This document shows, piece after piece, positions 12,762 to 35,373 of a stretch of DNA of 51,453 nucleotides. Origin of the DNA: Saccharospirillum sp. (GTDB taxonomy: Bacteria > Pseudomonadota > Gammaproteobacteria > Pseudomonadales > Natronospirillaceae); assembly GCA_022565595.1 (NCBI GenBank), contig JAIUML010000030.1, forward strand, positions 1 through 51,453, in the 5' to 3' direction. A model generated the notes under the pieces. That model searched no databases and was not told the DNA's origin. It saw nothing but the letters and a program-made list of their open reading frames with translations. The translations under genes and the position numbers were made by a program. Numbering within the stretch: position 1 is the stretch's first letter; each line of letters begins with the position of its first letter.

Positions 12762-13092
12762 CCGGGTATTTCCTCAAAAGAGATCTGTGTCAGTTCGGTC
12801 GGCCAGGAGTTGAGGGATGCATCTATAGTACCACCCTCGGTTTGGTGTAACAGAGGGCCCGTCCATTTAGAAGGTCTAGCGAGTCATGATGCCTCAGCGG
12901 TAGAACTTCAGGCTGTCTGGAAGTTGACGGCGAATGGAGTGAATTTGCAAAAAGAACGATGTTATGCTTTTTTTAATTGGCTTATGCCGAACGCAGTTGT
13001 CGGCGCTGGTAAGCAACCGGCACCAGTCAGCGAAAGGCGCTTTGTAGTAACGAAACCCGGATATTCAGGATTGATCATTGGGAGGCAGTTTC
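12762..13092. other. Intergenic region without a recognisable gene
   Basis: The 331 bases separate the divergent ChaC-type gene and the lipoprotein gene. A plus-strand reading frame passes through part of it but has no ribosome binding site or recognisable sequence. AT-rich sequence around 12950-12980 is the likeliest promoter area. Confidence 0.5.
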
Positions 13093-20653: not shown

Positions 20654-21775
20654 TTAGATGATAGTGCGATGCGTCGCTGCCCGGTTGACAATGAGTGGGT
20701 CAATGGAGCCCATGCGGTGGATGTCTTTGTTCGGGTAGTCGAACTGGCTCAACACATAGCGCATGGCGTTTAAACGTGCCCGTTTTTTGCAGTCGGATTT
20801 GATAACGATCCAGGGGGCCTCTGACGTATCGGTCTGGAAGAACATGGCTTCTTTTGCTTTGGTGTATTCATCCCACTTGTCGAGCGAGGCACGGTCGATC
20901 GGGCTGAGTTTCCATTGTTTGAGCGGATGTGATTCTCGCTCGGTAAAGCGACGCCGCTGCTCTTCGCGTGTGACTGAAAACCAGAATTTAATCAGGTGGA
21001 TGCCTGAGCGCACCAGGTTGCGTTCGAAATCGGGCGCCTGGCGCATGAATTCTCGGTAGTCTTCATCAGCGCAAAAGCCCATGACTCGCTCAACACCTGC
21101 CCGGTTGTACCAGGATCGGTCAAACAACACAATTTCACCTGCGGTGGGTAGGTGATTAACATAGCGTTGGAAATACCATTGACCCTGCTCAGCGATGGTC
21201 GGCTTCTCCAGTGCGATAACCCTGGCACCCCGGGGGTTGAGGTGTTCCATAAAGCGCTTGATGGTGCCACCCTTGCCTGCTGCATCGCGCCCCTCAAACA
21301 GAATGACAACACGTGCGCCGGTCTCCTTGACCCAATGTTGCAACTTGAGCAGCTCCACTTGCAGGTTGTACTTTTGCTTTTCGTAGGATTTCCGGCGCAG
21401 TCGGTTGCGATACGGGTAATTGCTTTCTCGCCAGTCCTGGCGCAATTCTTCGTCAGAGTCTGAGCCAAGTTGAGACGTGCGTTCAAACTCCTCACGTAGC
21501 AAAGTGCGCCTGAGCAGTGCCACATCATCAGGCGAGGCACCGGACAGAATAGCACTGAGCTGGTTGGACACCTGCTCGATCTCGCCTTGCTCGGCTTCAT
21601 GGCTGCCTTTAGCAGAAATTTCCTTCAGCACGACTTCCAATGCCGCCTGAGCGCCCTGGGTGCGCTCTTTGGCACTAAACTCAGAAATAGCCGCTGGGGT
21701 CAGATCTTTCGCGGTATCGCCTGCGTCTACTTCATGTCGGTTGTCTGACTTGTTTAAGTGCTTTCCAATAGCCAT
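20654..21775 (-). CDS. ppk2: Polyphosphate kinase 2
   Basis: The 373-residue product is a PPK2 that transfers phosphate between polyphosphate and nucleotides. Walker A is GRDAAGKGG (residues 162-170). The lid and Walker B regions follow as YFQRYVNHLPTAGEIVLFDRSWYNRAGVE and HLIKFWFSVTREEQRRRF. A charged N-terminal extension of about 115 residues precedes the kinase core. The ATG at 21775 is preferred because GAGG lies six bases upstream; that GAGG belongs to an in-frame GTG four codons earlier. Class (ADP- or AMP-phosphorylating) cannot be assigned securely. It stands alone, tail-to-tail with the LysR gene. Confidence 0.9.
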   Translation of the reverse strand: MAIGKHLNKSDNRHEVDAGDTAKDLTPAAISEFSAKERTQGAQAALEVVLKEISAKGSHEAEQGEIEQVSNQLSAILSGASPDDVALLRRTLLREEFERTSQLGSDSDEELRQDWRESNYPYRNRLRRKSYEKQKYNLQVELLKLQHWVKETGARVVILFEGRDAAGKGGTIKRFMEHLNPRGARVIALEKPTIAEQGQWYFQRYVNHLPTAGEIVLFDRSWYNRAGVERVMGFCADEDYREFMRQAPDFERNLVRSGIHLIKFWFSVTREEQRRRFTERESHPLKQWKLSPIDRASLDKWDEYTKAKEAMFFQTDTSEAPWIVIKSDCKKRARLNAMRYVLSQFDYPNKDIHRMGSIDPLIVNRAATHRTII

Positions 21776-21851
21776 CTGACGCCTCACAGTTGAGCATGGT
21801 GGGATGTGATCGTTTCGATATTAGCCGAAGGTAAAAAAATCACCTTGATCC

Positions 21852-22127
21852 ATGTCAGATGGATGGGCTTCTTTATCTGACAGAAAAGCAGTCATAGCAC
21901 TCTGGGAGGAGGTTGGCCTTGTTGTGCCTCAAAACGACCCGGGCAAGGACATCGACTGGAAAATGCAGGTCGACCCCTAACTTTTCCGGATTGCTAAGTA
22001 CGAAGGGCGCATCGTCGCTACCTTAATATCCGGCTATGAGAGGCACCGAGGTTGGATCAACTACCATTATTTGTTCTGCGGCAGTCGTCATTTTCCGGCT
22101 AACGCGTCTTATTGGCGCCAACTCTAA
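21852..22127 (+). pseudogene. YpeA-like GNAT acetyltransferase remnant
   Basis: A plus-strand frame starting ATG at 21852 reads KAVIALWEEVGLVVPQNDP and GKDIDWKMQVDP. It meets TAA at 21978-21980 and then continues LFRIAKYEGRIVATLISGYE with RHRGWINYHYLFC, ending at TAA 22125-22127. This follows the E. coli YpeA order ([43 protein letters not shown]). The acetyl-CoA loop and the C-terminal half are missing. It is therefore a decayed gene with one internal stop and a 3' truncation. Confidence 0.7.
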
Positions 22128-22231
22128 GCCATGTACAGTGGCCTCTGCTTCAGGGTACAAGGGGCAGGCTCCCGGTAGTGCTCAGTCGTGCTGATTGCTC
22201 AGCCTCATTGCTGCATTAACGATCATTCAAT

Positions 22232-22260
22232 TGCCATAAATGTGTCCCATAAATGTCATA
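22232..22260 (+). promoter_or_regulatory. Pho-box-like direct repeats upstream of phnD
   Basis: TGCCATA (22232), TGTCCCA (22243) and TGTCATA (22254) recur with exact 11-base spacing, the geometry of PhoB boxes (TGTCATA-like heptamers with 4-base spacers). The last unit ends 57 bases before the phnD start. PhoB is not encoded in the window. Confidence 0.6.
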
Positions 22261-22317
22261 TTAATGGCGTACCTTGGCATCACTTGAACCGAAATCTCAC
22301 ATGTTCTGAGGTGATGC

Positions 22318-23265
22318 ATGCGTACTTTAATGACCGTAGTAACACTCGCCGCCGTGGCGGTAACGCCAGCTCTGGCTAACTTCCAGCTGGACAGCCGTTA
22401 CACCGATAATGATGGCGATATGATTGCCGATATCCCGACCAACGCTTCGCAGTGGGTAAACCCAAATACCCTGGTGTTTGCTTACACTCCGGTGGAAGAC
22501 CCCGCCGTATACGCTGAAGTTTGGCAGCCATTCCTGGACCACATGGCGGAAGTGACTGGTAAGCGGGTGCAGTTCTTCCCGGTTCAATCCAACGCCGCTC
22601 AAATTGAAGCGATGCGTGCGGGACGTTTGCATGTTGCCGGATTCAACACTGGCTCCAACCCACTGGCCGTTGCCTGTGCCGGTTTCCGCCCCTTCGCCAT
22701 GATGGCTTCTGAAGATGGCAGCTTCGGTTACGAAATGGAATTCATTACTCACCCGGGTTCCGGCATCAACAGCATTGAAGACATCCGTGGTCGCACCCTG
22801 GCCTTTACGGCCGAGACGTCCAACTCGGGCTTCAAGGCGCCACAGGCACTGCTGGAAGCCGAATACGGTCTGGTGGTCAACAACGACTACAGCCCGGCAT
22901 TCTCTGGTGCGCACGATAACTCCATTCTCGGTGTCGTCAACCGAGACTACGATGCCGCTGCCATTGCTAACTCTGTTGCGCATCGCATGATGCAGCGTGG
23001 CGTGATCAACGATGGCGATTATGTCACCATCTATCAGTCTGACAGCTTCCCGACCACCGGTTACGGCACTGCGCACAACCTGCACCCGGACTTGCAGGAA
23101 AAGATTCACGAAGCCTTTTTCAGTTTTGACTGGACCGGCACCAGTATGGAAGCGGAATTCGGCAATTCAGGCGAGTCTCAGTTTATCCCTATTACGTTCC
23201 AGGAGCATTGGTCGGTGATTCGTCAGATCGATGCCGCCATGGGCGTGCAATACACCTGTAATTGA
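22318..23265 (+). CDS. phnD: Phosphonate/phosphite ABC transporter binding protein PhnD
   Basis: The 315-residue periplasmic protein has a signal peptide (MRTLMTVVTLAAVAVTPALA). It then shows the PhnD-family order: LVFAYTPVEDPAVYAEVWQPFLDHM, the QSNAAQIEAMRAGRLHVAGFNTG segment, and the anion-binding loop ETSNSGFKAPQALL. GAHDNSILGVVNRDYDAAAIAN follows. It captures phosphonate, phosphite or a related oxyanion for the PhnC/PhnE complex. GAGGTGATGC lies immediately before the ATG. A terminator-like hairpin separates it from phnC, which would raise binding protein levels over the membrane components. The ligand cannot be decided without the binding pocket model. Confidence 0.88.
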   Translation: MRTLMTVVTLAAVAVTPALANFQLDSRYTDNDGDMIADIPTNASQWVNPNTLVFAYTPVEDPAVYAEVWQPFLDHMAEVTGKRVQFFPVQSNAAQIEAMRAGRLHVAGFNTGSNPLAVACAGFRPFAMMASEDGSFGYEMEFITHPGSGINSIEDIRGRTLAFTAETSNSGFKAPQALLEAEYGLVVNNDYSPAFSGAHDNSILGVVNRDYDAAAIANSVAHRMMQRGVINDGDYVTIYQSDSFPTTGYGTAHNLHPDLQEKIHEAFFSFDWTGTSMEAEFGNSGESQFIPITFQEHWSVIRQIDAAMGVQYTCN

Positions 23266-23282
23266 TCCCAGGATATACCTTT

Positions 23283-23312
23283 AAAAACCTGCCTCTATCT
23301 AGGCGGGTTTTT
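23283..23312 (+). terminator. Partial terminator between phnD and phnC
   Basis: AAAAACCTGCC and GGCGGGTTTTT pair (one G-T) around an 8-base loop with a T-run. It sits inside the operon, so it probably acts as an attenuator that makes phnD more abundant. Confidence 0.7.
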
Positions 23313-23329
23313 GCGTATTGGAGTACCCC

Positions 23330-24157
23330 ATGCTTACGGTAGACAAGCTCAATAAAACGTACAAAACGGGCGACAAAGCCCTGACCGATGTCAGCTTTAC
23401 AGTGCCCAAGGGCCAGGTTGTTGGTTTGATTGGTCCATCTGGTGCGGGCAAGTCGACCTTGATTCGCTGCATCAATCGCCTGGTAGAGCCCACCTCGGGA
23501 TCTGTGCGTTTGAACGATACTGAGATCAGTCGCTTGAGTGTAGGCGAATTGCGCCGTGCACGACGTCGCATTGGCATGATCTTCCAGGAGTACGCCCTGG
23601 TAGAGCGTTTGACTGTGATGGAAAACGTTCTATCGGGTCGTTTGGGTTATGTGCCTTTCTGGCGCAGCTTCCTGCGCAAGTTCCCCGGCGACGACATTGC
23701 CAAAGCCTACCGGTTGTTGGATCGGGTTGGGCTGATGGCGCATGCCGACAAGCGAGCAGATGCACTCTCCGGCGGTCAGCGTCAGCGAGTAGGTATTGCT
23801 CGCGCTCTGGAGCAGGATCCGGAGCTGATGCTGATTGATGAACCGACGGCAAGTCTGGACCCGAAAACCAGCCGCCAGATTATGCGGTTATTGGTCGAGA
23901 TCTGCGCCGAGAGTAGTCTGCCTGCCATCATCAATATTCACGATGTGGTATTGGCGCAACAGTTTACGGATCGCATCATCGGGCTCCAGGCCGGGCAGGT
24001 GGTTTTTGATGGTTCGCCCAACGAACTGACGGAAGCTGTACTGACCCAGATTTATGGTGAAGAAGATTGGACGGCCATGCGTCGCGGCGCTGCAGAGGAC
24101 GCCGAAGCCGAGGCTGAGGCGCATCGTGAGACCGAGAAATTGATGAGCGCCCTATGA
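23330..24157 (+). CDS. phnC: Phosphonate ABC transporter ATP-binding protein PhnC
   Basis: The 275-residue ABC ATPase has Walker [10 protein letters not shown] (near residue 35), signature LSGGQRQRV, Walker B LMLIDEP and the switch His in IINIHDV. The insertion around [20 protein letters not shown] is characteristic of PhnC proteins. The Ala/Glu-rich tail ([16 protein letters not shown]) is extra and probably disordered. The ATG at 23330 has GGAG six bases upstream; a TTG four codons earlier is less likely. Its stop overlaps the first permease start (ATGA). Confidence 0.92.
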
Positions 24158-24960
24158 CAAAGCAAAGCTACCCTACGCAGTGGCGAAGACCACCGCAAAT
24201 CATTCAGGCGAAACATTGGCGTTATCTGGTGACCTTTGGTGTGTTGCTGTATCTGATCATGGCCATAGGCACAGTCGAGGTGAACTGGGGCCGAGTCGTG
24301 GAAGGCGTTGAGCGTGGCCAGCGTTTCATTGCCGGTTTCCTGCAACCGGATTTTACGACACGCTGGCGTGACATTTCACGCGGCCTGATTGAAAGCCTGA
24401 CCATGACCTTTACTTCCACTGTCGTCGGTGTGTTGATCTCTATCCCCATCGGTGTAGGTGCAGCACGCAACCTTGCTCCGAGATGGGTCTACTATGTCTG
24501 CCGCAGCGTCATTGCTGTGAGTCGTTCCTTGCAGGAAATCATCGTCGCCATTTTCTTTGTTGCGCTCTTTGGTTTTGGTGCCTTTGCCGGCTTCCTGACC
24601 TTGACCTTTGCCACCATTGGTTTTATTGGCAAGCTGCTGGCGGAAGACATTGAAGATATTGATGAAGCTCAAGCGGAGGCGGTTCGTGCGACCGGAGCTT
24701 CCTGGTTACAACTGATAAATTACGCCGTTCAGCCGCAGGTGATGCCGAGGCTAATCGGTTTGTCTCTGTACCGGCTAGACATTAATTTTCGTGAGAGTGC
24801 GGTGATCGGCATTGTTGGTGCTGGTGGTATTGGTGCAACCTTGAATACGTCGCTCTCTCGATACGAATACGACAGTTCTGGTGCGATTCTGATCATCATA
24901 ATCGCTATTGTGATGATGACCGAATACTCTTCCAGCCACTTGCGCAGGTGGGTGAAATGA
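24154..24960 (+). CDS. phnE: Phosphonate ABC transporter permease PhnE (first)
   Basis: The 268-residue permease has six likely membrane segments and the PhnE-type coupling loop [56 protein letters not shown] follows, typical of PhnE. It overlaps phnC and the second permease by four bases on each side, so the three are translationally coupled. It is paired with the next gene to form a heterodimer instead of the homodimer made where a single phnE exists. Confidence 0.9.
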
Positions 24961-25778
24961 CTACGACTCCAACCACTCAAACACCAACACCTGTTTGGCA
25001 CCCACGCACGCCAAAGGCACGCATTACCTTGTGGTTCTTCTGGTTGCTGACGGTGGCCCTGTTCGTTTATTGCTGGAACCTGATGACAGCAAACACCATG
25101 TGGGTGTTCGTTTACGATGCCCCTCAGGCGGCCAGTGATTTATTCAACCGGGCATTCCCGCCACGCTGGACTTATATGGAGCGGTTGTGGAAACCGTTGT
25201 GGGATACCATCAATATCGCCACCCTGGGCACCTTGTTGGGTATCATGATGGCGGTGCCTTTGGCTTTTCTGGCGGCCAGTAATACCACGCCATCGAAGGT
25301 ATTTCTGCGGCCATTTGCCCTGTTTTGCATTGTTACTTCTCGTTCAATCAACTCCCTGATCTGGGCGTTGCTGTTGGTGTCAATTCTGGGCCCTGGCTTG
25401 CTGGCCGGTATTCTCGCCATTGCCTTTCGCTCCATTGGTTTTATTGGCAAGCTGCTCTATGAAGCTATTGAAGAGACGGAAGTCAGCCAGGTAGAAGCCA
25501 TTACGGCGACGGGGGCTTCTCAGGCTCAGATTCTGAACTATGGCATCGTGCCGCAAGTGTTGCCGGCCTTTTACGGCATCAGTGTCTTTCGTTGGGACAT
25601 CAACATCCGGGAGAGCGCCATACTTGGCCTGGTCGGTGCCGGGGGCATTGGCTCGCAATTGCAGGCGAGTATGAATGTGCTAGCCTGGCCTCAAGTCATG
25701 GTGATCCTGGTGGTCATACTCGGCACGGTCGTTGTGTCGGAGTGGGTGTCGGCTTGGGTGCGCAAAGCGGTTATTTGA
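24957..25778 (+). CDS. phnE: Phosphonate ABC transporter permease PhnE (second)
   Basis: The 273-residue permease is a diverged paralogue of the preceding one, with EAIEETEVSQVEAITATGASQAQILNYGIVPQVLP as coupling loop. RWDINIRESAILGLVGAGGIGSQL follows. The ATG at 24957 overlaps the preceding stop as ATGA; a GTG three codons earlier is possible. It ends the phnDCEE set. No C-P lyase, phnW/X or phosphite dehydrogenase gene follows, so use of the substrate must be encoded elsewhere. Confidence 0.9.
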   Translation: MTTTPTTQTPTPVWHPRTPKARITLWFFWLLTVALFVYCWNLMTANTMWVFVYDAPQAASDLFNRAFPPRWTYMERLWKPLWDTINIATLGTLLGIMMAVPLAFLAASNTTPSKVFLRPFALFCIVTSRSINSLIWALLLVSILGPGLLAGILAIAFRSIGFIGKLLYEAIEETEVSQVEAITATGASQAQILNYGIVPQVLPAFYGISVFRWDINIRESAILGLVGAGGIGSQLQASMNVLAWPQVMVILVVILGTVVVSEWVSAWVRKAVI

Positions 25779-25850: not shown

Positions 25851-25879
25851 TGTAAGTCATCTGTAAGCTCCTGCTGTCA
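25851..25879 (+). promoter_or_regulatory. TGTAAG direct-repeat element, copy A
   Basis: TGTAAG at 25851 and 25862 (11-base period), then six bases and CTGTCA. The same order occurs before the next lipoprotein gene and, less completely, before a third. It ends about 45 bases ahead of the ATG at 25925. It is a likely operator and promoter region. Confidence 0.6.
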
Positions 25880-25924
25880 CCATGAACTCCTGGTATTGAT
25901 TCAGATCGAAGACAGGGGGAAAGG

Positions 25925-28384
25925 ATGATGGTTTATTCTGGTTATTATCGGGCCATGGTTTTATTCGCCGGTGTGGCGATTGGTCTGGCCGGCTGTGGTG
26001 GTTCGGGCAGCGATGACGCGGCTGAGGTAGACCCCCCAACCGAATCCGATGATCCAATGGAAGCACTCACTTTGTCAGCTTCGTCCGACATCATGCAGGT
26101 TCACCTGAGCTGGGGTGGCGCTGACGCCGTGGACATTCTTTACAGCTCTGACCCTGGGTGCGACTGGGATAATTATTCGTTGTGCAGTGGCGCTGGCATG
26201 CTGTCGGGTGTTACTGATTCCGAGGTCGCTATCGGGGCGGTTGAAGAAAACCTGTCTACCGAGAGAGGCTGGTATTTTGTGGTAGAGGCGGATGAGCGGC
26301 GCTCGTCTCAAGTAGCGGCCAGGCCCGCTGTGCCGTCTTTTGGTGGCTACCAGATCTATGCGCTGGAAACCGATGGCGATAACCTCTATGTTGGTGGCAG
26401 CTTCAGCCGAGTCGCACTGGCGACCGGGGGGCTGGCCATGTTCGACGCTCAGCAAGATAACACCCTGACCGGTGTGCTGCCCTATATGGAAGGCCAGGTT
26501 CTCGACATTGTTGACGATGGCACCGGTGGCTGGATTGTGGGCGGTCTGTTTGAGCGCGTCGATGGCAAGGAGCGCATCAATCTGGCCAGATTGCGACAGG
26601 ATGGTACCGTCGAAACCGATTGGCAGGTCGATGTTAACGGGCCTGTTTATGCGATGGCGGTTCAGGGGGATCGTCTCTTTATTGGGGGAGACTTTTCGCA
26701 ACTGACGATCGACAAGGATGCCCAATACAATCGATCAAACCTGGCGGCCATTGAACTGTCGACTGGCGTACCGGTGACTGGCTGGAATCCGACGATCAAC
26801 GATCCGGTTTGGGCGCTGACCAGCAACGAAACGCAGTTGTACCTCGGTGGCAGCTTTACCCAGGTCAACGGTACTAATCGCAACCACCTGGCGGCACTGT
26901 CGATCGACGACGGCTCGGTCAACAGCGGCTGGACACCCAGTGCAAACGATACGGTCAACACGCTCTTGTATGATTCAGGAGCGGTGTTCGCCGGAGGACT
27001 CTTCACCAGAGTGTCTGATGACGACAGGGATTTCCTGGTAAAAATCGATGCCGTCTCGGGAGGGGTTGATGGACAGTGGAACCCGGGAGCGCCGGATGAA
27101 GTGCTTGTCCTGGGCCTTTGGGAAGATCAGCTCCTGGCCGGTGGCGTCCACAGCTCCTCCGATTGGCCTACGCCGTTTTCAATCATCGATCGAACCGACG
27201 GGGCACACGATCAGAGCTGGGATCTGCCCGACTCTTACCTGAGTGACGATGTGCACGGTTTGGCCGTTTCCGGTGATCGCATTTACATCGCCACCGAGCG
27301 TAACCTGATGGCGTTGGACGCACCGTTGAAAACATCAGCGCCTTGGGAGGCGAAAATCGGGGTCGCCTTTGACGATGGCCCAAGAGCGATAGCAGCCACA
27401 CCAGATCAGGTTTTGGTTGGCGGTGAATTTCCGGAGTCTGGCGGCAATCGATACAACAGCATCGCGGTAATGGATATTGAGACGGGTGTCCTGCAGGAGC
27501 CGCTTTCTGGTTCGACAGGGCAGGTATATGAGCTGTTGTATAACGACGGGCGGCTCTATGCCGGGGGTACTATGTACTTCAATGCAGATCAGCAGAGCAT
27601 CGCTGCATTCGACCTGACGACCATGGCTCGGGATGAGGACTGGAAGGCTACCGCCAGCAGTTCAAGGGATGTGTCCGGGCTGGCCATCAGCGGTGGCACC
27701 TTGTATGCCGGAGGGCGTTTTGGAAAGGTGGGTGACGAGGATGTTGTTCGAGTCACCGGTTTTGATCTGGTCAGCGGTGAACTCAGTGATTTTACCCACG
27801 CGCCAGAGCCGGATGACACCGTCAATGCTCTGGCCGCTACGGAAGACCAACTGTTGCTGGGTGGGCGCTTTGGCAATGTCGCCGGTCAGGCCCATGAGCA
27901 CCTTGTGTCGCTCAAAACTGCGGATGGCACCATGACCACGGGCTGGACCATGGAAGCGTCCAATACCGTCAACACCTTTCACTGGGGCAACGACACAACG
28001 CTCTACGTGGGCGGTCGGTTCAACACCCTGGGTGGAGAGAGCCACAATGGCATCGCCCGTTTGCTAATGGACGATGGCAGTTTCGACCTGGATACCGGCT
28101 GGACTCCAGCGGCATCGAATACGTTGTCGATTGCTACCGGTGAGAATCGCGTCTTCGTCGGTCGCAGTATCGCCCAGGATGCAGCCGATGGGCTGATGGC
28201 GTTTTCGCGTTTTAGCAACGGCAGTCAAGTCGATGATTGGGATCCAGCGCCAGATAAAAGTGTGAATGCCCTCTTGTACCACGACGGCAAGCTTTTTGTT
28301 GGTGGCTGGTTCCAGAAGCTGGACGGAAAACACCGTAACCTCTTTGGCGTGCTGGATGCCGACACCGGAGAGCTAATTTGGTAG
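25925..28384 (+). CDS. Lipoprotein with beta-propeller-type repeats
   Basis: The 819-residue product has a lipoprotein signal and lipobox GLAGC (Cys near residue 24), followed by a Gly/Ser/Asp linker. A fibronectin-like beta domain (about residues 45-135) precedes the body. The body consists of roughly a dozen repeats of 45-60 residues, each with the pattern V-x-AL-x-x-x-x-x-x-L-x-x-GG-x-F-x-x-V and then A-x-(I/L)-D-x-x-(T/D)-G-x-x-x-x-W-x-P. Examples are LYVGGSFSRV, LFIGGDFSQL, LYLGGSFTQV and LFVGGWFQKL. This resembles DUF5122/delta-60 propellers of unknown function. GGGGAAAGG precedes the first of two ATGs. No enzymatic motif is seen. Confidence 0.8.
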   Translation: MMVYSGYYRAMVLFAGVAIGLAGCGGSGSDDAAEVDPPTESDDPMEALTLSASSDIMQVHLSWGGADAVDILYSSDPGCDWDNYSLCSGAGMLSGVTDSEVAIGAVEENLSTERGWYFVVEADERRSSQVAARPAVPSFGGYQIYALETDGDNLYVGGSFSRVALATGGLAMFDAQQDNTLTGVLPYMEGQVLDIVDDGTGGWIVGGLFERVDGKERINLARLRQDGTVETDWQVDVNGPVYAMAVQGDRLFIGGDFSQLTIDKDAQYNRSNLAAIELSTGVPVTGWNPTINDPVWALTSNETQLYLGGSFTQVNGTNRNHLAALSIDDGSVNSGWTPSANDTVNTLLYDSGAVFAGGLFTRVSDDDRDFLVKIDAVSGGVDGQWNPGAPDEVLVLGLWEDQLLAGGVHSSSDWPTPFSIIDRTDGAHDQSWDLPDSYLSDDVHGLAVSGDRIYIATERNLMALDAPLKTSAPWEAKIGVAFDDGPRAIAATPDQVLVGGEFPESGGNRYNSIAVMDIETGVLQEPLSGSTGQVYELLYNDGRLYAGGTMYFNADQQSIAAFDLTTMARDEDWKATASSSRDVSGLAISGGTLYAGGRFGKVGDEDVVRVTGFDLVSGELSDFTHAPEPDDTVNALAATEDQLLLGGRFGNVAGQAHEHLVSLKTADGTMTTGWTMEASNTVNTFHWGNDTTLYVGGRFNTLGGESHNGIARLLMDDGSFDLDTGWTPAASNTLSIATGENRVFVGRSIAQDAADGLMAFSRFSNGSQVDDWDPAPDKSVNALLYHDGKLFVGGWFQKLDGKHRNLFGVLDADTGELIW

Positions 28385-28399
28385 TGCCAAAGTGGCTGC

Positions 28400-28428
28400 T
28401 GTAAGTCGTTTGTAAGGGCGGACTGTCA
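28400..28428 (+). promoter_or_regulatory. TGTAAG direct-repeat element, copy B
   Basis: TGTAAG at 28400 and 28411, then six bases and CTGTCA, exactly as in copy A. A second shared block (TTCAG-x-TCG) lies about 30 bases further on in both copies. It starts 16 bases after the preceding gene and lies 75 bases before the next start. Confidence 0.6.
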
Positions 28429-28502
28429 TGATGAGCCCTCTCTGAGTTCAGGTCGTCTGGAGGCAGAGTGGGATTTGTTTCGTACTAGAACAGGGGTTCA
28501 TC

Positions 28503-30545
28503 ATGACAACCGATAAAGGACGTTCAGGGCCTTTGCTCCGGCCTTATTCAAAGGAGCTGATGGTCGGGTTGACGCTCGCCAGTGGCGTTCTACTTTCAGC
28601 CTGCAATAGCAGTTCCGGAAACGGAGAAGAGGATGTTGATCAGGCAACCTTTGAAGTAAGCACTCAGGCCGGTACAGGCGGCAGCATCAGCCCACAAACG
28701 CAACAGGCGAGCCGTGGTGAGGTGCTGGATTTCGAGATTGCCATCGAGAGCGGCTTTAGCCTGGTGGATATTGATGGCTGCAGCGGCAGCTTGTCCGATA
28801 CCACCTACACCACCGGAGCAATTGAGGCGGATTGCACCATTACGCTGACCTTTGATGAATTGGCCGAAGCGCCCGAACCAGGCGTTTCGCTGCTGGTTGC
28901 CGCCAATGAAGAAGTCGAGTTGGGCAGCTATGGGCCAGCGTTGATGAATGGCCTCAGTCAGGCTTTTATCAATGCCAAGGGTGATGTCAGCTTGCGCAGC
29001 ACCATGCGTGATTTGGATCACAACATTGTTTCCGGTGGTGCAAGCCACCTCTTGTTGCCGGCCGACGGTAGTGGACCCACGCCTTTTCTTAGCCAGTTTT
29101 TGACCATACCACAGTTTCCGGATGCAACACCGGTCCGCTTCGCCCGACACAGCCCGGCACCCGACGGCAGCCTGATGGCCTTGGTGGGGTTTGAAGAAGG
29201 CTCCACGGAATTCGCCGCGGCTGTGCGCTATCACGAGGGTGACTATCAGATCATGATTGAGCCGGATGACGTACCAGGGTTAACCGGCTACAGCCTTCGG
29301 TCGGATTTTGATTTCGGCAATATCTTCCGGTTCAATGAGTCTGGCCAAACCGCCATTCGACTCAGAGTAACCGATGCAGCGGATAACAATACCGTCACCT
29401 GGTTGTTCGGGGAGCCGGAAAACCTCGCACCCGCCTTTACCTGGGGAGACGGTACCGGTCAGTTCCACCTGGAGTATGGTGAGTATTTGTTTCGCTGGCC
29501 TTTCCTGAGCGTGGGCAATTCCAGCCCGGCCATCTCTGCTGACGGGTCGATCGCTGTCTATGCCAGCACCAAAACGGATCGGGACAGCCAGCCGGACGAT
29601 GAATTTGCCACGATCAAGGCGCTGTGGTCAGTGGCTCCAGAGCAGAGCGACCCGGAAATACGCGTCAGAACCCATGCGCCCTTTACAAGCCAGGGAACGG
29701 GTATGCTGGAGGAGTTCAGTGATATCGCGCCGGGCGGTCAGGAACAGGGCTACTCACTGAATGATCAGGGCGAGATCGCGCTGTTGAACGGTTACACCGA
29801 TGACGGGTTCAAACGGGACCTCTGGTTCCTGGATGAAGATGGCTACTGGCCCATTGCCCGCCATGGCACGGTGGCGCCCAATACAGACCAGGTAGGCCTG
29901 AGCACCGGCGCCACTTTTGGCCGGATTGGTGTGCCGGCGCTGTCCAACTCCGGGCAGATGACGTTTCAAGCCGAGGTCGAAAGCCAAACCAGCGTTTGGG
30001 TGGCTAGCCGCGTTGAAGCTCAGCCCATTGCCATCGAAGGCATGGACGCACCGGGTCTTGAAAATTGGACGTTTGCGCGCCTGGGCCTGGATGCCTTGCC
30101 ACCGCTGGATGCGCCCTTCATCAATAACAAGGACCAGGTGATTTTTTGGGCCGAGTTGGAAGACACGAGCAATGGCAGCTCCGCCGACAGTCTGTGGCTT
30201 CACGATGCCTGTAATGGACTCTGGTTGATTGCCATGGAAGATCAGGAGATTGAGCTTGAAGGCGTGCCTGTAGTTATAGATTGGGAGGACGGCCAGGCCG
30301 TAAGAGGCAAGGAAACCGCAGAGCGTACGCTGAGAAGTCTGGATACGCCGCCTTTCTACGCCAACACTGGCCCAACCGGCCCCAATACCGGCCAGCGATA
30401 CCCCTTGAACGACCAGGGTGAGTTTGTCTTTGTGGGCGAACTGGCTGGAGACTACTCCACGGGTTTGATTTCAGAAGGCGATACCGGGACCTACCATCGA
30501 CAGGATGTCGTTTTGAAAGCCCAGTTGCCACAATGTGAGGCTTGA
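28503..30545 (+). CDS. Lipoprotein of unknown function
   Basis: The 680-residue product has an unusually long N-region before the hydrophobic stretch and lipobox LLSAC (near residue 34). Residues about 48-118 form a bacterial repeat beta domain: FEVSTQAGTGGSISPQTQQASRGEVLDFEI, then the paired cysteines of GCSGSL and DCTITLTF. The remainder carries spaced motifs such as SFINAKGDVSLRS, AISADGSIAVYAS, SLNDQGEIALLNG and ALSNSGQMTFQA. These resemble propeller-like repeats in which each blade contains a loop (N/S)-x-x-G-x-(I/V/M). AGGGG precedes the ATG. It ends tail-to-tail with the next gene. Confidence 0.78.
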   Translation: MTTDKGRSGPLLRPYSKELMVGLTLASGVLLSACNSSSGNGEEDVDQATFEVSTQAGTGGSISPQTQQASRGEVLDFEIAIESGFSLVDIDGCSGSLSDTTYTTGAIEADCTITLTFDELAEAPEPGVSLLVAANEEVELGSYGPALMNGLSQAFINAKGDVSLRSTMRDLDHNIVSGGASHLLLPADGSGPTPFLSQFLTIPQFPDATPVRFARHSPAPDGSLMALVGFEEGSTEFAAAVRYHEGDYQIMIEPDDVPGLTGYSLRSDFDFGNIFRFNESGQTAIRLRVTDAADNNTVTWLFGEPENLAPAFTWGDGTGQFHLEYGEYLFRWPFLSVGNSSPAISADGSIAVYASTKTDRDSQPDDEFATIKALWSVAPEQSDPEIRVRTHAPFTSQGTGMLEEFSDIAPGGQEQGYSLNDQGEIALLNGYTDDGFKRDLWFLDEDGYWPIARHGTVAPNTDQVGLSTGATFGRIGVPALSNSGQMTFQAEVESQTSVWVASRVEAQPIAIEGMDAPGLENWTFARLGLDALPPLDAPFINNKDQVIFWAELEDTSNGSSADSLWLHDACNGLWLIAMEDQEIELEGVPVVIDWEDGQAVRGKETAERTLRSLDTPPFYANTGPTGPNTGQRYPLNDQGEFVFVGELAGDYSTGLISEGDTGTYHRQDVVLKAQLPQCEA

Positions 30546-30550
30546 GAAAA

Positions 30551-30583
30551 GTAAAGGGGCCTAGAAGCAAGGCCCCGTTTTAC
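30551..30583. terminator. Bidirectional terminator
   Basis: GGGGCC and GGCCCC form the core stem with flanking GTAAA/TTTTAC pairing. It lies in the 46-base gap between two convergent lipoprotein genes. TTTT follows on the plus strand, and the minus-strand reading ends in a mixed T/C stretch. Confidence 0.7.
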
Positions 30584-30591
30584 TCCGGAAC

Positions 30592-32151
30592 TTAGTAAAT
30601 CACTTCAATGGTTGGCAGCAAAGGCGCAGTGCAACCATCCCCGTTCTGCAAGCAGGTTTCGCTGAAGGCATCCCCCTCGTTCAACCCAAGCATCGTCTCA
30701 ATACCGACGATAACCTGAAGTTCCGTTCTGGATTCAGTCAACGCCTGTTTGAGCCAGGGAGTTGCGTCCCCCCAAAGCCAGGGTTGTGGCTCTACCAGGC
30801 TGTTATTGCCACTCAGGTTGATGGGGTTGTTTTGCGCAGCAAAGACGGTATCGGGAGTGCCCGTCCATTCCTCCAGAGAGGCTCTGATAAAGGAATAAGG
30901 GTTGTTCCCGTCGACCTGGTTCAGCCGCAAACTGGCGGCGATCACATCATCTTCTGTGCTGATGCCGGCCGGTAAATTACTCAGATTGAAGGTCAGAGCT
31001 AGGTGGTATTGAGTATAGGCGTCAGCATCGCCCTGGGTGCCGAGTTTGGCCAGGGTAGCGGTTGTCGGAGCCAGTAAGGTTGCACCAGGGTTGTCCTGCG
31101 CCAGTTGATAGTGACTGTCGGTACCGTTGCGCCAGACGAGTTGCGATGGCCCGAAGTCCATCCCAAGCGACGCATAAGCCGGATGCAACTCAGGCGGTAC
31201 GGCTGAGCCATTAGCGTCTTTGCTGGTGCCCGAGGCGATTTGGTACAGATCACAAGTAGTAAAGCCATAGTAGAAGGCGGCCTCTGCCTCAGTGGCCTGG
31301 TCGCCATTGAGTAAAACGCCAGACTTGTCGGCATAGCCGCCGCCAGTGCAGTTGTCGCTGTTGAAAGCACCCTCGGCCAGTTGAGCCATGGCACCCAGGT
31401 CGGGATGAAAAGCCACCAGATCAATCTGTGGCTGGCTGACGCTGAGCCCGAATTTGTGGCGTACCCAATAGCGATAGGTGGTATTGGTGGCCGTGTGATG
31501 AACGTCCATGGCCAGCAACAGCCAGCTCAGTTCGTTGTAGAGTGCGCCGGCACCATTGATAACAAAGTCCTCCCCGCGCCATTGCACGGCCAGGTTTTGA
31601 AATTCATAGTTGAGGTCATAATCGGCATCGCTCTGATGCCAGTGCAAGTTACCACTGAAGGTGATTTCAGCATTGTCCCCATTGCTCACCTGAACACAGG
31701 CCGGGCCAAAGGACTCGCCGCCGCTCTGGCTGCTGAGGGTGACGGGGCCAGCCGGGCAGGCTGCCTGTTCCATAAAGTCGATCAGGTCGGCGGGCTCGGT
31801 GCCGAGGTGGTCGAACAACCGGTCAGTGAGGTGATAAGGGACCGCCATCAAGGCGTTGCCCAGAATTGCAGTGTCGATCATCTGGCGTTGTTGTTGGTCT
31901 TCGGCATTGCCGTCGTAAAGGCTGGCAATCGGTTGTGCCCAATCGTTCAGCCCGGTGTAGCTTGTGCTGAACGCGAGCTGAGAGCTGAAACGAAAGATTT
32001 CTGCTGGCGTATTGGCACCGGGTGTAGAGCCGCCGTTGGTGCTGGTATCGTCGACATTGTCGTTGTTGCCACTACCACCACCGCCGCTACTGGAGTTGCA
32101 GGCGGCAAGCGTCAGGCTGATCAGGGCAATGGAAAGCAGATGTTTGGGCAT
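30592..32151 (-). CDS. Lipoprotein of unknown function
   Basis: The 519-residue product has a short lipoprotein signal with lipobox LAAC (Cys at about 18) and a Gly/Asn/Ser linker (CNSSSGGGGSGNNDNVDD). It contains several Cys pairs. A central beta-rich domain (ITFSGNLHWHQSDADYDLNYEF; VQWRGEDFVINGAGAL) and a late part with DVIAASLRLNQV and DATPWLKQAL can be seen. The latter resembles DNRLRE-type or other carbohydrate-associated beta domains. I recognise no family with confidence. It lies directly downstream of the STAND regulator on the same strand, 57 bases from its stop, with copy C of the TGTAAG element in between. Confidence 0.75.
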   Translation of the reverse strand: MPKHLLSIALISLTLAACNSSSGGGGSGNNDNVDDTSTNGGSTPGANTPAEIFRFSSQLAFSTSYTGLNDWAQPIASLYDGNAEDQQQRQMIDTAILGNALMAVPYHLTDRLFDHLGTEPADLIDFMEQAACPAGPVTLSSQSGGESFGPACVQVSNGDNAEITFSGNLHWHQSDADYDLNYEFQNLAVQWRGEDFVINGAGALYNELSWLLLAMDVHHTATNTTYRYWVRHKFGLSVSQPQIDLVAFHPDLGAMAQLAEGAFNSDNCTGGGYADKSGVLLNGDQATEAEAAFYYGFTTCDLYQIASGTSKDANGSAVPPELHPAYASLGMDFGPSQLVWRNGTDSHYQLAQDNPGATLLAPTTATLAKLGTQGDADAYTQYHLALTFNLSNLPAGISTEDDVIAASLRLNQVDGNNPYSFIRASLEEWTGTPDTVFAAQNNPINLSGNNSLVEPQPWLWGDATPWLKQALTESRTELQVIVGIETMLGLNEGDAFSETCLQNGDGCTAPLLPTIEVIY

Positions 32152-32184
32152 GGTTGAACTCCGTTTAGTTGTTGTTCAACCAGT

Positions 32185-32213
32185 GTCCACAAACCACTTA
32201 CATCTGCCTTACA
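32185..32213 (-). promoter_or_regulatory. TGTAAG direct-repeat element, copy C
   Basis: On the minus strand TGTAAG occurs at 32213-32208 and 32202-32197, again 11 bases apart, ending 45 bases before the lipoprotein start at 32151. The first box contains the TAA stop of the upstream regulator gene. The CTGTCA block is replaced here by GTGGACAC. Confidence 0.55.
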
Positions 32214-35200
32214 GGGAGGTGAGTTTCCGGTAGGTCGCTACTAATGGTTCGGGTGGTGGGGCATCCAGCTCTCTTTTGTAGTGTGCTTTGGCCTGTTCAA
32301 AGGTCAGCTCCAGCGTTCTTGCGTTGCCCTGTTTTGCCTCGGTTCTAAGCAGCCCACTCCAAAGTGCTTGTTCTAGTGGCAGATGCCGCAATGCCCTGCG
32401 GTAGTGCTGGCGCGCCTGGTCGCTGTCGGCTTGTTCCAGTTGTTTACTAAGCGTCAGTACCAGGGTCAGATAGTGCTGGTTGAGGGTTTCCTGGTAAATG
32501 GCGGCTTGTGTTTCGTCCAGAACCTCCAGGTGCAGCCGACCGCTGAACAGATTAACGGCCTGTTGCAAAACCGGGTGGGTCAGTTGTCGGGCCTGTTGAG
32601 CGAGGCCTTCCAACTCCCAGCAGTCCACCCAGACCTGATGTGGGTTAAGCCGAACCTGACCAGCTTCAACAATCAAGGCATTGGCATTGCGCAGAGCGTC
32701 ACGCACACGGTGAGTGGTCACATGCAGGCTGTTGGCGGCTTTGTCCGGGTCACTGTCTGGCCAGAGAGCACTGGACAGTTGTTCCAACGGTAAGCCATCC
32801 TTGCCAGCAAGAATCAGCTCGGAGAGCAAAGCACGAGTGCGCTTTTGAGGCAGGCGCCCCAGCAACTGGCCATGGGCTTTTACATCGAATTGGCCCATGA
32901 CCTGCAACTGGCAAGGCCAGGGCCAGCTCTGTCGGAGCCCGCAATGCGTTGGTGGCAAGAGTTTGCGCGCCGAGATCAGCCAATACACATAGTCCGGTTC
33001 AATGTTTTCTCGCAAGGCCAGGGCAGCCAGAGTGGCCAACTCCTGATCACGAATCTGTATCGGGAAAAACAGCCGCTCTCGGGCACCGGCATGAAAGGCG
33101 CGGCGAATAAAGGGCAGGGCGCGTTCCGGCTGTCGGCGGTGCAGGGGGATTCGTGCCAGAGTCAAATACACCATGACATCGACAAAGCCGCTGTCAAAAC
33201 TACGAAAGGCCTTTCTGGCTCTGGCCGCTGAACGCAGGGCTTGCGGGTAGTGACCCGCCTCCGAGAGCAGACTGGCATAAATGGATTCAAAACCGGCGGT
33301 TATGGCTTCTGAACCGTGGCGGTGCATGGTCTCCAGACTGCGCTCGGCATGGTCCAGGGCCTCTGGAAGGTGGCCGCTGAGCCAGGCCTGACCGGCCAGG
33401 ACATGGGCCTGAAAGGTATCGTAAAAAGGCCGATGAGCTTTCAATTCAGTGCGCATGAACCATCCCGCCCAATCGTTCATGATGCGGTTGTCGTGAAAGC
33501 AAAGCGCGCAGTGAATGGGCGGTATGGCGTTATCCCAGGTGCTGATGCCGTGTGTTCGAATCAACTCGCGGCCGTGCTCAGCTTTTGCCAGACAAGCGGC
33601 CTGATCGGCCTCAAACAGCAATGACCAGAGCGAGTCAAAGGTTGCCCAGAGACACTGGGCCAAAGGGCCGGCCTGGCGGACCAGATGTGGGCTTTCGTTG
33701 ATAATGCTGACGACGGCAGCGGCATCGGCACGGCGACCGAACTGCCAGGTACTCAGGTACATCAACTGGCTGGCCAGCATCAGGCGCTCATCGGCTGGAA
33801 TGGACTCTTTGGAGATCGCCGAAAGGCCCTCCTGATGCCAGCGTTTGAGTTCATCTGAGCCCGGGCGGGCATAACCCAGGGCAGTGAGCATACCGCGAAC
33901 AACCCTGTACCAGAGCGCCTCCGGTAAAGACGAGCGAAGGCCATCCTCAACCGCCAACAAGGCATCAATCCAGGGGGTATACTCGGAGATGTGGGCCCAT
34001 TCCAGCCAGATGCTGTCGACAATGCCACTCCACGCCAGGGCCATGTGCAGGCTATCCTGTTGTTGAGTCAGGTTAGTCCAGGCAGAGGTTAAATGGGCGC
34101 GCGCTGACCGAGTATCCGTCAGTAGCAGGCAAAGGCCTAGCCAAACCTGCAGATAGGGGTCTTCATCGACCAGGCTGGAAGGCAAAGCCTGAAGCCATTG
34201 GTAGAGCTGGTCACCCCGGCCCTGTTGCAGCAGGGTGCCGCCCTGTTCGCGCAGACCCTGTGCCAGGCTTTGTGTAGCGCCGGAGTCCTGTAGCAGGGTT
34301 GCCGCTTCGCTCCAGTCGCCGGCTCGCCACAGAGCATGGCCCCACTCTAGCTGCCACCGCTGGCGTTGTGCCGCACTCAAAAGGGATTCGCTGCGCTGCA
34401 GTAGAAACTCTCTGAACAGGTCATGCAGCACATAGCCGGGGCCGAGATCCGGGTGGTTTTCCTCGCGAATAAAGGCATGATCCAGGTACAGTTGCTCGAG
34501 CCGCTTTTGGGCGTGGGTGAGTTCAGTAACCTCATTGACCAGCGTCTTTGGGATGTGCCGCACCCACACCGCACGCATCAGCAACTGGCGAGCCTCTTCG
34601 TCCAGGGGTGCAAAGACTTCCTGTTCAAACCAGTCTCTAATATTGCGTTGCAACAGGTGCTGTTCGTCCTGTCGTGACGGCCGTCGGCTGTGTTCCATCA
34701 ACAGCATTAGCCCGGCTGCCCAGCCGCGAGTTTCAAGCGAAAGCGCCTTTAGTCCTGGTGCCAGATGAGTGTTGTGTTGATCAAGCAGGGCTTGTTGTTC
34801 GCTGTCGCGGAATACCAGATCGTCTTCGTCAATAAAGGCCAGCAGATTCTGGGCGCGCAGCCTTGCCCAAATGGAAGGCGGCTCCTGTCGACTGGCGAGC
34901 AGGATGCGGTGGCCAGCATTGAGCAGACTCTCGGCAAAATGTATGACCAAAGTCTGTACCGGGTGAGTCTCTGGCAGGTTCTGTACATCATCCAGAAATA
35001 CGGCGCTATCGACGGGCGTAATATCCAGCCATTTTTGGGTAAAGTGTTCTGCTAAGCGGTCGACTGAGGCTGCGTATTCTGGTGTCAGCACAGGTAAGGC
35101 CAGTGCGGTTTCTCCAAAGCTGTCCAATGCGCGCTGTCGTAGGCTGAAAAACCACTCACCAATACCTAAAGCGGTTTTTGGTATGGGCAGATACAGATGG

Positions 35201-35373
35201 TTAATTTTACGTTGTGATAAAAAATCCAGCGCCAGGGTGGTCTTGCCATAACCGCCGGCGGCGACCAGCCAAAGGATGCGTTCCGAGGTGATGGACTCCA
35301 GTGTTTGATTCAGCCTTGGGCGTCTTAAAACTGCCTTTTGTGACCGGGAGGAATTCGCAACCTTGCGTCCCAT
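32209..35373 (-). CDS. MalT-like STAND ATPase transcriptional regulator with SARP-type DNA-binding and BTAD domains
   Basis: The product has about 1054 residues (1057 from a TTG at 35382, whose residue numbering I use). A STAND/MalT-type ATPase is N-terminal, with P-loop AAGGYGKTT (41-49) and Walker B VFLDDV (128-133). A long helical TPR-like region spans about 340-800. The C-terminus (about 820-905) is an OmpR/SARP winged helix: GRLPQKRTRALLSELIL and LSSALWPDSDPDKAANSLHVTTHRVRDAL. A BTAD-like helical tail (about 910-1050) ends it. MalT itself ends in a LuxR helix-turn-helix, so this is a different fusion. OmpR/SARP winged helices bind direct repeats at 11-base period, as seen before three neighbouring lipoprotein genes. 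The inducer is unknown. Confidence 0.85.
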   Translation of the reverse strand: MGRKVANSSRSQKAVLRRPRLNQTLESITSERILWLVAAGGYGKTTLALDFLSQRKINHLYLPIPKTALGIGEWFFSLRQRALDSFGETALALPVLTPEYAASVDRLAEHFTQKWLDITPVDSAVFLDDVQNLPETHPVQTLVIHFAESLLNAGHRILLASRQEPPSIWARLRAQNLLAFIDEDDLVFRDSEQQALLDQHNTHLAPGLKALSLETRGWAAGLMLLMEHSRRPSRQDEQHLLQRNIRDWFEQEVFAPLDEEARQLLMRAVWVRHIPKTLVNEVTELTHAQKRLEQLYLDHAFIREENHPDLGPGYVLHDLFREFLLQRSESLLSAAQRQRWQLEWGHALWRAGDWSEAATLLQDSGATQSLAQGLREQGGTLLQQGRGDQLYQWLQALPSSLVDEDPYLQVWLGLCLLLTDTRSARAHLTSAWTNLTQQQDSLHMALAWSGIVDSIWLEWAHISEYTPWIDALLAVEDGLRSSLPEALWYRVVRGMLTALGYARPGSDELKRWHQEGLSAISKESIPADERLMLASQLMYLSTWQFGRRADAAAVVSIINESPHLVRQAGPLAQCLWATFDSLWSLLFEADQAACLAKAEHGRELIRTHGISTWDNAIPPIHCALCFHDNRIMNDWAGWFMRTELKAHRPFYDTFQAHVLAGQAWLSGHLPEALDHAERSLETMHRHGSEAITAGFESIYASLLSEAGHYPQALRSAARARKAFRSFDSGFVDVMVYLTLARIPLHRRQPERALPFIRRAFHAGARERLFFPIQIRDQELATLAALALRENIEPDYVYWLISARKLLPPTHCGLRQSWPWPCQLQVMGQFDVKAHGQLLGRLPQKRTRALLSELILAGKDGLPLEQLSSALWPDSDPDKAANSLHVTTHRVRDALRNANALIVEAGQVRLNPHQVWVDCWELEGLAQQARQLTHPVLQQAVNLFSGRLHLEVLDETQAAIYQETLNQHYLTLVLTLSKQLEQADSDQARQHYRRALRHLPLEQALWSGLLRTEAKQGNARTLELTFEQAKAHYKRELDAPPPEPLVATYRKLTSL

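Follow-up and report, generated by a model that had tools for sequence, protein, structure and literature searches.

A STAND-SARP regulator with a C-terminal SARP domain and its probable TGTAAG direct-repeat operator before lipoprotein genes in Gammaproteobacteria

A 51,453-nucleotide stretch of the genome of Saccharospirillum sp. (assembly GCA_022565595.1, contig JAIUML010000030.1; Gammaproteobacteria, Natronospirillaceae), referred to below as the window, carries three lipoprotein genes (A, B and C) beside a gene encoding a 1054-residue protein with a STAND ATPase part and a SARP domain, and each lipoprotein gene is preceded by one copy of the direct repeat TGTAAG-N5-TGTAAG (the motif). We propose, with a probability of roughly 0.85, that the STAND-SARP protein is a one-component activator of lipoprotein genes that acts through this motif. 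Comparison of sequences from related genomes indicates that the motif and the regulator are a real, conserved operator-regulator pair. The parts of the regulator are of known kinds; what is new is their order, the strictness of the operator and the lipoprotein programme.

The motif and its association with the regulator gene

A first-pass annotation, made from the letters of the window alone, had described three paired copies of the motif, each 45-90 bases before a lipoprotein gene, and no further paired copy in the window. Both statements hold. The exact copies lie 57, 86 and 45 nt before the ATG of genes A, B and C, respectively, all three genes satisfy the lipobox rule, and a scan of the window that allowed two mismatches returned only the same three sites (shuffles yielded 1.76 on average), while 100 shuffles of the window contained no exact copy. 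The sites and genes are as follows:

25851..25867, plus strand: putative operator A, TGTAAG-TCATC-TGTAAG, an 11-bp direct repeat and one of the genome's three
25925..28384, plus strand: lipoprotein A, 819 residues, with beta-propeller repeats (DUF5122, Rax2)
28400..28416, plus strand: putative operator B, TGTAAG-TCGTT-TGTAAG
28503..30545, plus strand: lipoprotein B, 680 residues, with DUF7453 and NxxGxxAF repeats
30592..32151, minus strand: lipoprotein C, 519 residues, with no Pfam family at E<=0.01
32197..32213, minus strand: putative operator C, TGTAAG-GCAGA-TGTAAG, sharing bases with the regulator gene's stop codon

Nor is the motif scattered at random over the genome: the 66 contigs scanned (4.77 Mb, 99.94% complete) hold three exact copies in total, all of them inside the window, and none of the reversed-pattern control. 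The base composition of the window predicts about 0.3 exact copies per genome and 0.0004 in 6.4 kb. Looser matches in the genome show no excess over the reversed control, either with up to one mismatch (6 against 4) or with up to two (106 against 175), so that the signal appears to be strict. Three one-mismatch sites elsewhere in the genome are not claimed as targets: one (L006) lies within an opposite-strand open reading frame (ORF), one (L008) within an ORF, and the third (L007), between genes, is followed by no ORF of 100 residues on its own strand.

The co-occurrence of regulator and motif in relatives, implicit in the regulon that the first-pass annotation had suggested, was borne out by surveys of the family and of the class. 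Among 22 genomes of the family, a full-length regulator is encoded in that of Saccharospirillum sp. and in two of Natronospirillum (48% identical), and these three regulator genomes (E<=1e-60) carry 3, 4 (Natronospirillum operosum) and 9 exact sites; the 19 genomes without a regulator hold none in 16 cases and one or two in three (four sites in total). Exact copies are absent from five other members of the genus. A scan of GTDB contigs added homologues from Arhodomonas, from metagenome-assembled genomes (MAGs) of Alcanivoracaceae, Aquisalimonas and Halorhodospira (the last with two copies), and from Thioalkalivibrio denitrificans, where the gene is cut by the contig end; a ninth locus, a Streptosporangiaceae fragment at 27% identity, was not used.

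In the class survey of 369 genomes, in which the best two candidates per genome were scored and "without regulator" means that none was found, 32 genomes encode a homologue at E<=1e-100. The motif is present in 16 of these 32 and in 36 of the remaining 337 (p 3e-7), or in 15 of 31 when the Saccharospirillum sp. genome is excluded (p 1e-6), and at least two sites occur in 11/32 regulator genomes compared with 5/337 others. By site tallies summed by hand, as were the group counts, the 32 regulator genomes contain 40 exact copies (three of them from the window) against 6 of the reversed control, and the 337 others 47 against 48. At a relaxed threshold (E<=1e-40), homologues emerged in five of the 36 motif-bearing genomes first classed as lacking the regulator and in none of 36 motif-free ones (p 0.054). 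Four genomes (G238, G216, G066 and G147) that count as regulator-less at E<=1e-100, and hence among the 47 sites and 36 genomes, were placed with the regulator group for the counts of targets, column conservation and promoter geometry given below; G233, in which the regulator is split over two frames, was kept in the regulator-less group.

The association extends to the immediate neighbourhood of the gene. We collected 40 regulators without use of the motif and examined 600 bp on each side of them for every hexamer repeated at spacings of 0-20, reverse complement included, with distances of adjacency measured from the matched part of the protein and not from the start codon. The exact motif lies within 600 bp of 16 of the 40, and TGTAAG at spacing 5 ranks first among 944 combinations of hexamer and spacing; register shifts of TGTAAG itself score 3-4, and no unrelated pair scores above 2. 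Placement varies, the motif being found in a divergent promoter, just downstream of the regulator gene (as in Saccharospirillum sp.), or directly before it, in three related genomes with the start codon 51-52 nt on.

Regulators of distant gammaproteobacteria from many families are likewise accompanied, and often adjoined, by the motif. Identity to the Saccharospirillum sp. regulator is 20-25% in these wider homologues with an adjacent motif (11 rows), and closest-clade and wider motif-bearing homologues share 18-27% identity (99 pairs). The homologues with an adjacent motif are spread over several deep clades of a 46-member tree, which has some long branches and uncertain details; one duplicate (L129, the same locus as L080) was dropped, and L163/L168 (a split gene), L164, L165 and the short L158 fragments stand outside the tree.

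Domain order of the regulator

Profile and fold matches agree with the composition given in the first-pass annotation, namely a MalT-like STAND ATPase, a TPR-like region, an OmpR/SARP winged helix and a BTAD-like tail:

32209..35373, minus strand: STAND-SARP regulator gene, 1054 residues
34144..35334, minus strand: MalT-like STAND ATPase part, residues ~14-410, with a GGYGKT P-loop
32944..34143, minus strand: TPR-like, all-helical presumed sensor region, residues ~411-810, modelled mostly at a predicted local distance difference test (pLDDT) score of 85-96
32644..32916, minus strand: OmpR-type winged helix, residues ~820-910, recognition helix N-S-L-H-V-T-x-H-R-x-R
32212..32643, minus strand: BTAD part of the SARP domain, residues ~911-1054

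The N-terminal ~400 residues match MalT of Escherichia coli (PDB 8bob) both by profile (E 4e-21) and by Foldseek, where it ranks first; the NCBIfam MalT model covers residues 5-411, below its whole-protein cut-off, and GGYGKT is conserved in the seven of eight aligned rows that cover it. The last 246 residues were modelled at pLDDT 94, and a fold search of the PDB with this model returned six chains at E<=0.001, all of them the AfsR SARP domain or EmbR, with AfsR closest (8hvr, 8k60). By sequence, Pfam BTAD falls just below its cut-off (21.2 against 22.1; E 4e-4), and GerE, the LuxR-type helix-turn-helix (HTH), has no match in the regulator at E<=0.01, its place being taken by the winged helix and BTAD. 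The SARP domain is C-terminal in all aligned homologues. A search of the genome with the regulator returned one other protein, 24% identical and in the ATPase part only. From these models the protein is best read as a STAND switch of the MalT type that carries its SARP domain at the C-terminus and in which the helical part would act as the sensor.

Several known regulators share parts of this plan. MalT, too, has an N-terminal STAND ATPase, a helical region and a C-terminal DNA-binding domain, but that domain is a LuxR-type HTH and the genes under its control are those for maltose, whereas the effector here is a SARP domain. HilA of Salmonella, also gammaproteobacterial, joins an OmpR-type winged helix to a BTAD/TPR-like region and binds direct repeats; its DNA-binding domain is N-terminal, it has no STAND ATPase, and its targets are others. 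Members of the SARP family carry the SARP domain at the N-terminus and activate transcription through contacts with sigma region 4 and RNA polymerase; with its SARP domain at the C-terminus, the present protein is therefore a SARP variant and not a plain SARP. AfsR of Streptomyces coelicolor, as presented in excerpts of PMC10936776, likewise unites a SARP domain, a STAND ATPase of the nucleotide-binding oligomerization domain (NOD) type and a TPR region, with the SARP domain N-terminal. Since the N-terminus is MalT-like, the middle TPR-like and the C-terminus SARP-like, the regulator consists of AfsR-type parts arranged the other way round, its switch being MalT-like. It differs from AfsR further in that its ATPase is nearest to MalT, its repeat is TGTAAG, its host is gammaproteobacterial, and its closest-clade targets are mostly lipoproteins and exported proteins and not genes of antibiotic regulation. 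Among the matches listed from the openly licensed literature, no such regulator system appeared.

Target genes and promoters in related genomes

We refer to the genomes of Saccharospirillum sp., the two Natronospirillum, Alcanivoracaceae, Aquisalimonas, Halorhodospira and Thioalkalivibrio as the core clade (Arhodomonas contributes no site). The first gene downstream of the motif has a lipobox at 19 of 31 core sites, compared with 8 of 222 background ORFs (p 1e-14), the latter figure being 16/230 from which eight target genes were removed by hand, with some antisense ORFs included. One evident lipoprotein (L092) missed by the lipobox rule was not added, and several more core targets have a hydrophobic N-terminus. 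Homologues of the window's genes stand behind exact motifs elsewhere: A is 36% identical over 424 residues to a Natronospirillum target (L078), C 28% over 423 residues to a target of another family in the Aquisalimonas MAG (L100), and the homology of B to a Natronospirillum target (L077) is confined to the N-terminal ~100 residues (39%), so that the motif is kept upstream of homologues of A and C and of a domain homologous to the N-terminus of B. Random scatter over the genome and lack of conservation before homologues, either of which would have refuted the first-pass proposal, are thus both contradicted by the sequences.

Among the other core targets are BNR/YCF48 proteins, FG-GAP proteins, a lipoprotein with VWA and a FecR-domain protein; of the targets scanned, roughly half belong to no Pfam family. 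One Natronospirillum target (L068) has TPR repeats before a barrel part and matches the Slam family (PF04575) at 32.9 bits against a cut-off of 22, and also, weakly and below cut-off, the EpsL outer-membrane model. The match and the order of TPR and barrel resemble Slam/DUF560 proteins of type 11 secretion as outlined in excerpts of PMC8406197. The resemblance is limited to this single target; its homologue behind a motif in the Halorhodospira MAG (L101) has no match to PF04575 at E<=0.01. The set of surface lipoproteins proposed in the first-pass annotation agrees with A-C and with most core targets, and must be widened beyond large lipoproteins to the Slam-like TPR-barrel protein, to small exported proteins and, in some distant genomes, to the regulator gene itself.

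At L257:3159-7779 of Natronospirillum operosum a Slam-like TPR-barrel gene is followed by a gene that by eye has a FecR-domain-like start, and a lipoprotein gene that bears the motif lies nearby. The second Natronospirillum has a motif directly before a FecR-domain gene (L069). A site of the form CGTAAG-N5-TGTAAG before a lipoprotein gene in G016 (L252) is possibly a degenerate member and was not counted. Sites of the form TGTCAG-N5-TGTAAG (L250, L251), which precede genes that by eye are Rieske-like and cytochrome-b-like in both Natronospirillum, were excluded, these not being envelope-lipoprotein genes; the variant is probably an unrelated promoter sequence.

In the wider class, some sites precede the regulator's own gene or an ATPase-less paralogue. 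In G228 and G335 (L172:443-2299, L174:2-1954) a second gene downstream of the motif encodes such a paralogue, which starts at the helical part and retains the winged helix; it may be a form that is constitutive or that acts as a partner. In two related genomes, G223 and G071 (L186, L189), the motif lies upstream of a SpoIIE-type phosphatase gene (products 66% identical, the Pfam assignment made for L186 alone), which suggests a further output into signalling in that clade.

Promoters governed by SARPs have direct repeats at 11 or 22 bp, the 3' repeat lying 8 bp from the -10 element. The 11-bp period is present here, and a TAnnnT hexamer starts 10-11 nt after the second repeat at 12/31 core sites (shuffle mean 0.8) and 22/43 sites of other regulator genomes (2.1), compared with 4/44 in the comparison set (2.4); the looser nAnnnT occurs at this position in 23/31 and 28/43 (shuffle means 2.9 and 6.7). 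Counted as 22 bp, the box stops 5-6 bp short of the -10. The afs box is similarly placed: for it, excerpts of PMC10936776 describe 11-bp direct repeats in a 22-bp box at -40 to -19, overlapping the -35 region and ending just before the -10. Across columns -10 to +44 of the 31 core sites, a single column outside the 17-bp motif exceeds 0.45 bits. Overlapping sites that form triple repeats occur at G071 and G238. In the window, promoters A and B fit nAnnnT at 10 nt, and C, by eye, only at 9:

25878..25883, plus strand: putative weak -10 of promoter A, CACCAT, preceded by TGT, 10 nt beyond the second repeat and fitting nAnnnT and not TAnnnT
28427..28432, plus strand: putative weak -10 of promoter B, CATGAT, fitting nAnnnT and not TAnnnT

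Copies A and B do share, as first noticed, CTGTCA six bases on and a TTCAG-x-TCG block. We considered CTGTCA as a third repeat and rejected it, a -10 region being the better explanation; it is probably that.

Proposed mechanism and alternative explanations

By analogy with MalT and AfsR, the STAND ATPase and TPR-like region would keep the regulator inactive until an inducer binds together with ATP; in AfsR, excerpts of PMC10936776 report, the NOD and TPR parts are inhibitory until ATP is bound. The freed SARP domains would then bind side by side, one protomer per repeat, on a 22-bp box (TGTAAG-N5-TGTAAG-N5). Much like the afs box, it would substitute for the -35 element and stop 5-6 bp short of a weak -10, and from it the bound domains would recruit RNA polymerase. 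Direct binding of the SARP domain to the repeats is presumed in this scheme, as are activation in place of repression and control by ATP and an inducer. In Saccharospirillum sp. the regulator would turn on the adjacent A, B and C and, judging from the exact motif, no other gene; in relatives it would control more lipoproteins, exported proteins and the TPR-barrel protein that resembles Slam, and some distant genomes would have its own gene among the targets.

Several observations weigh against this proposal. The 11-bp geometry cannot by itself name the protein, because other OmpR-type winged helices bind such repeats. No exact site occurs in 16 of the 32 regulator genomes of the class sample, nor in Arhodomonas aquaeolei, whose homologue is 45% identical; 24 of the 40 regulators collected blind to the motif have no exact site within 600 bp (two of these have a one-mismatch site there), and neither of the two sites of the Alcanivoracaceae genome is beside its homologue. 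Conversely, no regulator was found at E<=1e-40 in G405, with five sites, four of them before lipoproteins, or in G088 (L230-L233), with four exact sites, none before a lipoprotein. The TAnnnT hexamer stands at 10-11 nt in none of the window's three promoters; such poor -10 elements suit activator-dependent promoters, yet are also weaker evidence. The looser nAnnnT is in excess at that position in the comparison set also (13/44; shuffles 7.3, standard deviation 2.4). Outside the closest clade a lipobox occurs in 6/43 targets and in 7/44 of the comparison set, for which 40 of 41 sites from regulator-less genomes of the class were used (one, G373, was left out), and because of this lack of enrichment in distant genomes the term lipoprotein regulon is limited to the closest clade. 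It may be that divergent members of the regulator family recognise different sequences, or that genes are lacking from draft genomes; for G405, either the regulator is missing from the draft or a different regulator is at work. Of the five motif copies of that genome (L243-L247), four precede lipoproteins that are Ser-rich after the Cys.

That the repeats are instead the box of a common OmpR-family response regulator, with the STAND-SARP gene merely nearby, we consider improbable. The winged helices of such proteins bind 11-bp direct repeats, the PhoB and CpxR boxes resemble the motif, and a phosphonate-type ABC transporter is encoded just upstream of the proposed regulon; but regulators of the PhoB/CpxR type would be expected in nearly all genomes, whereas the motif exceeds its control neither in the 337 genomes without a detected STAND-SARP gene nor, by its complete absence, in the five congeners, and across deep divergence it ranks first in the flanks of the STAND-SARP gene. 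Should the motif belong to the regulator, the latter might still act mainly as a repressor, relieved by its loss or by the inducer: the box overlaps the promoter, and computation is blind to the sign of regulation. The position of the box and the weak -10 elements match activator-dependent SARP promoters, however, and the fold matches include AfsR solved with RNA polymerase at its promoter, so that we regard repression as similarly improbable. The sequence shared by A and B outside the motif could also suggest that the three copies descend from a duplicated promoter or repeat element of no regulatory meaning, a suggestion scarcely to be credited given the near-absence of conservation outside the 17 bp at core sites and the recurrence of the motif beside regulators in many families.

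With activation by the STAND-SARP protein as the preferred explanation, we entertain, at somewhat worse than even odds, the broader idea that a gammaproteobacterial family of AfsR-type proteins in inverted order (STAND first, SARP last) keeps a near-invariant operator and serves in the closest clade as a ligand-gated switch of the surface lipoproteome. If so, the closest clade, whose genera are largely halophiles and alkaliphiles, would possess a dedicated programme for remodelling its outer membrane, in which large lipoproteins and a Slam-like exporter are installed. The preferred explanation in itself extends activation of the SARP type, known mainly from work on actinomycetes, to Gammaproteobacteria with the domain order reversed, and ties uncharacterised lipoprotein families (propellers, DUF7453, VWA and those of no family), along with the Slam-like protein, to one control circuit. 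STAND proteins are relatives of the immune NLRs, and to our knowledge few bacterial ones have a known target set; here sequence suffices to name a regulator along with a probable operator and a probable set of target genes. The strict operator offers a ready query for further members, and since named isolates are among the relatives, the inducer could be sought with a simple reporter.

Two other parts of the window deserve record. A large lipobox ORF at 13078-14802 (574 residues, no Pfam family at E<=1e-4) has no motif, so that the motif is not a simple mark of every lipoprotein. Directly upstream of the proposed regulon, at 20654-25778, a polyphosphate kinase 2 gene lies near the phosphonate-type ABC transporter operon, which encodes a binding protein, an ATPase and two permeases.

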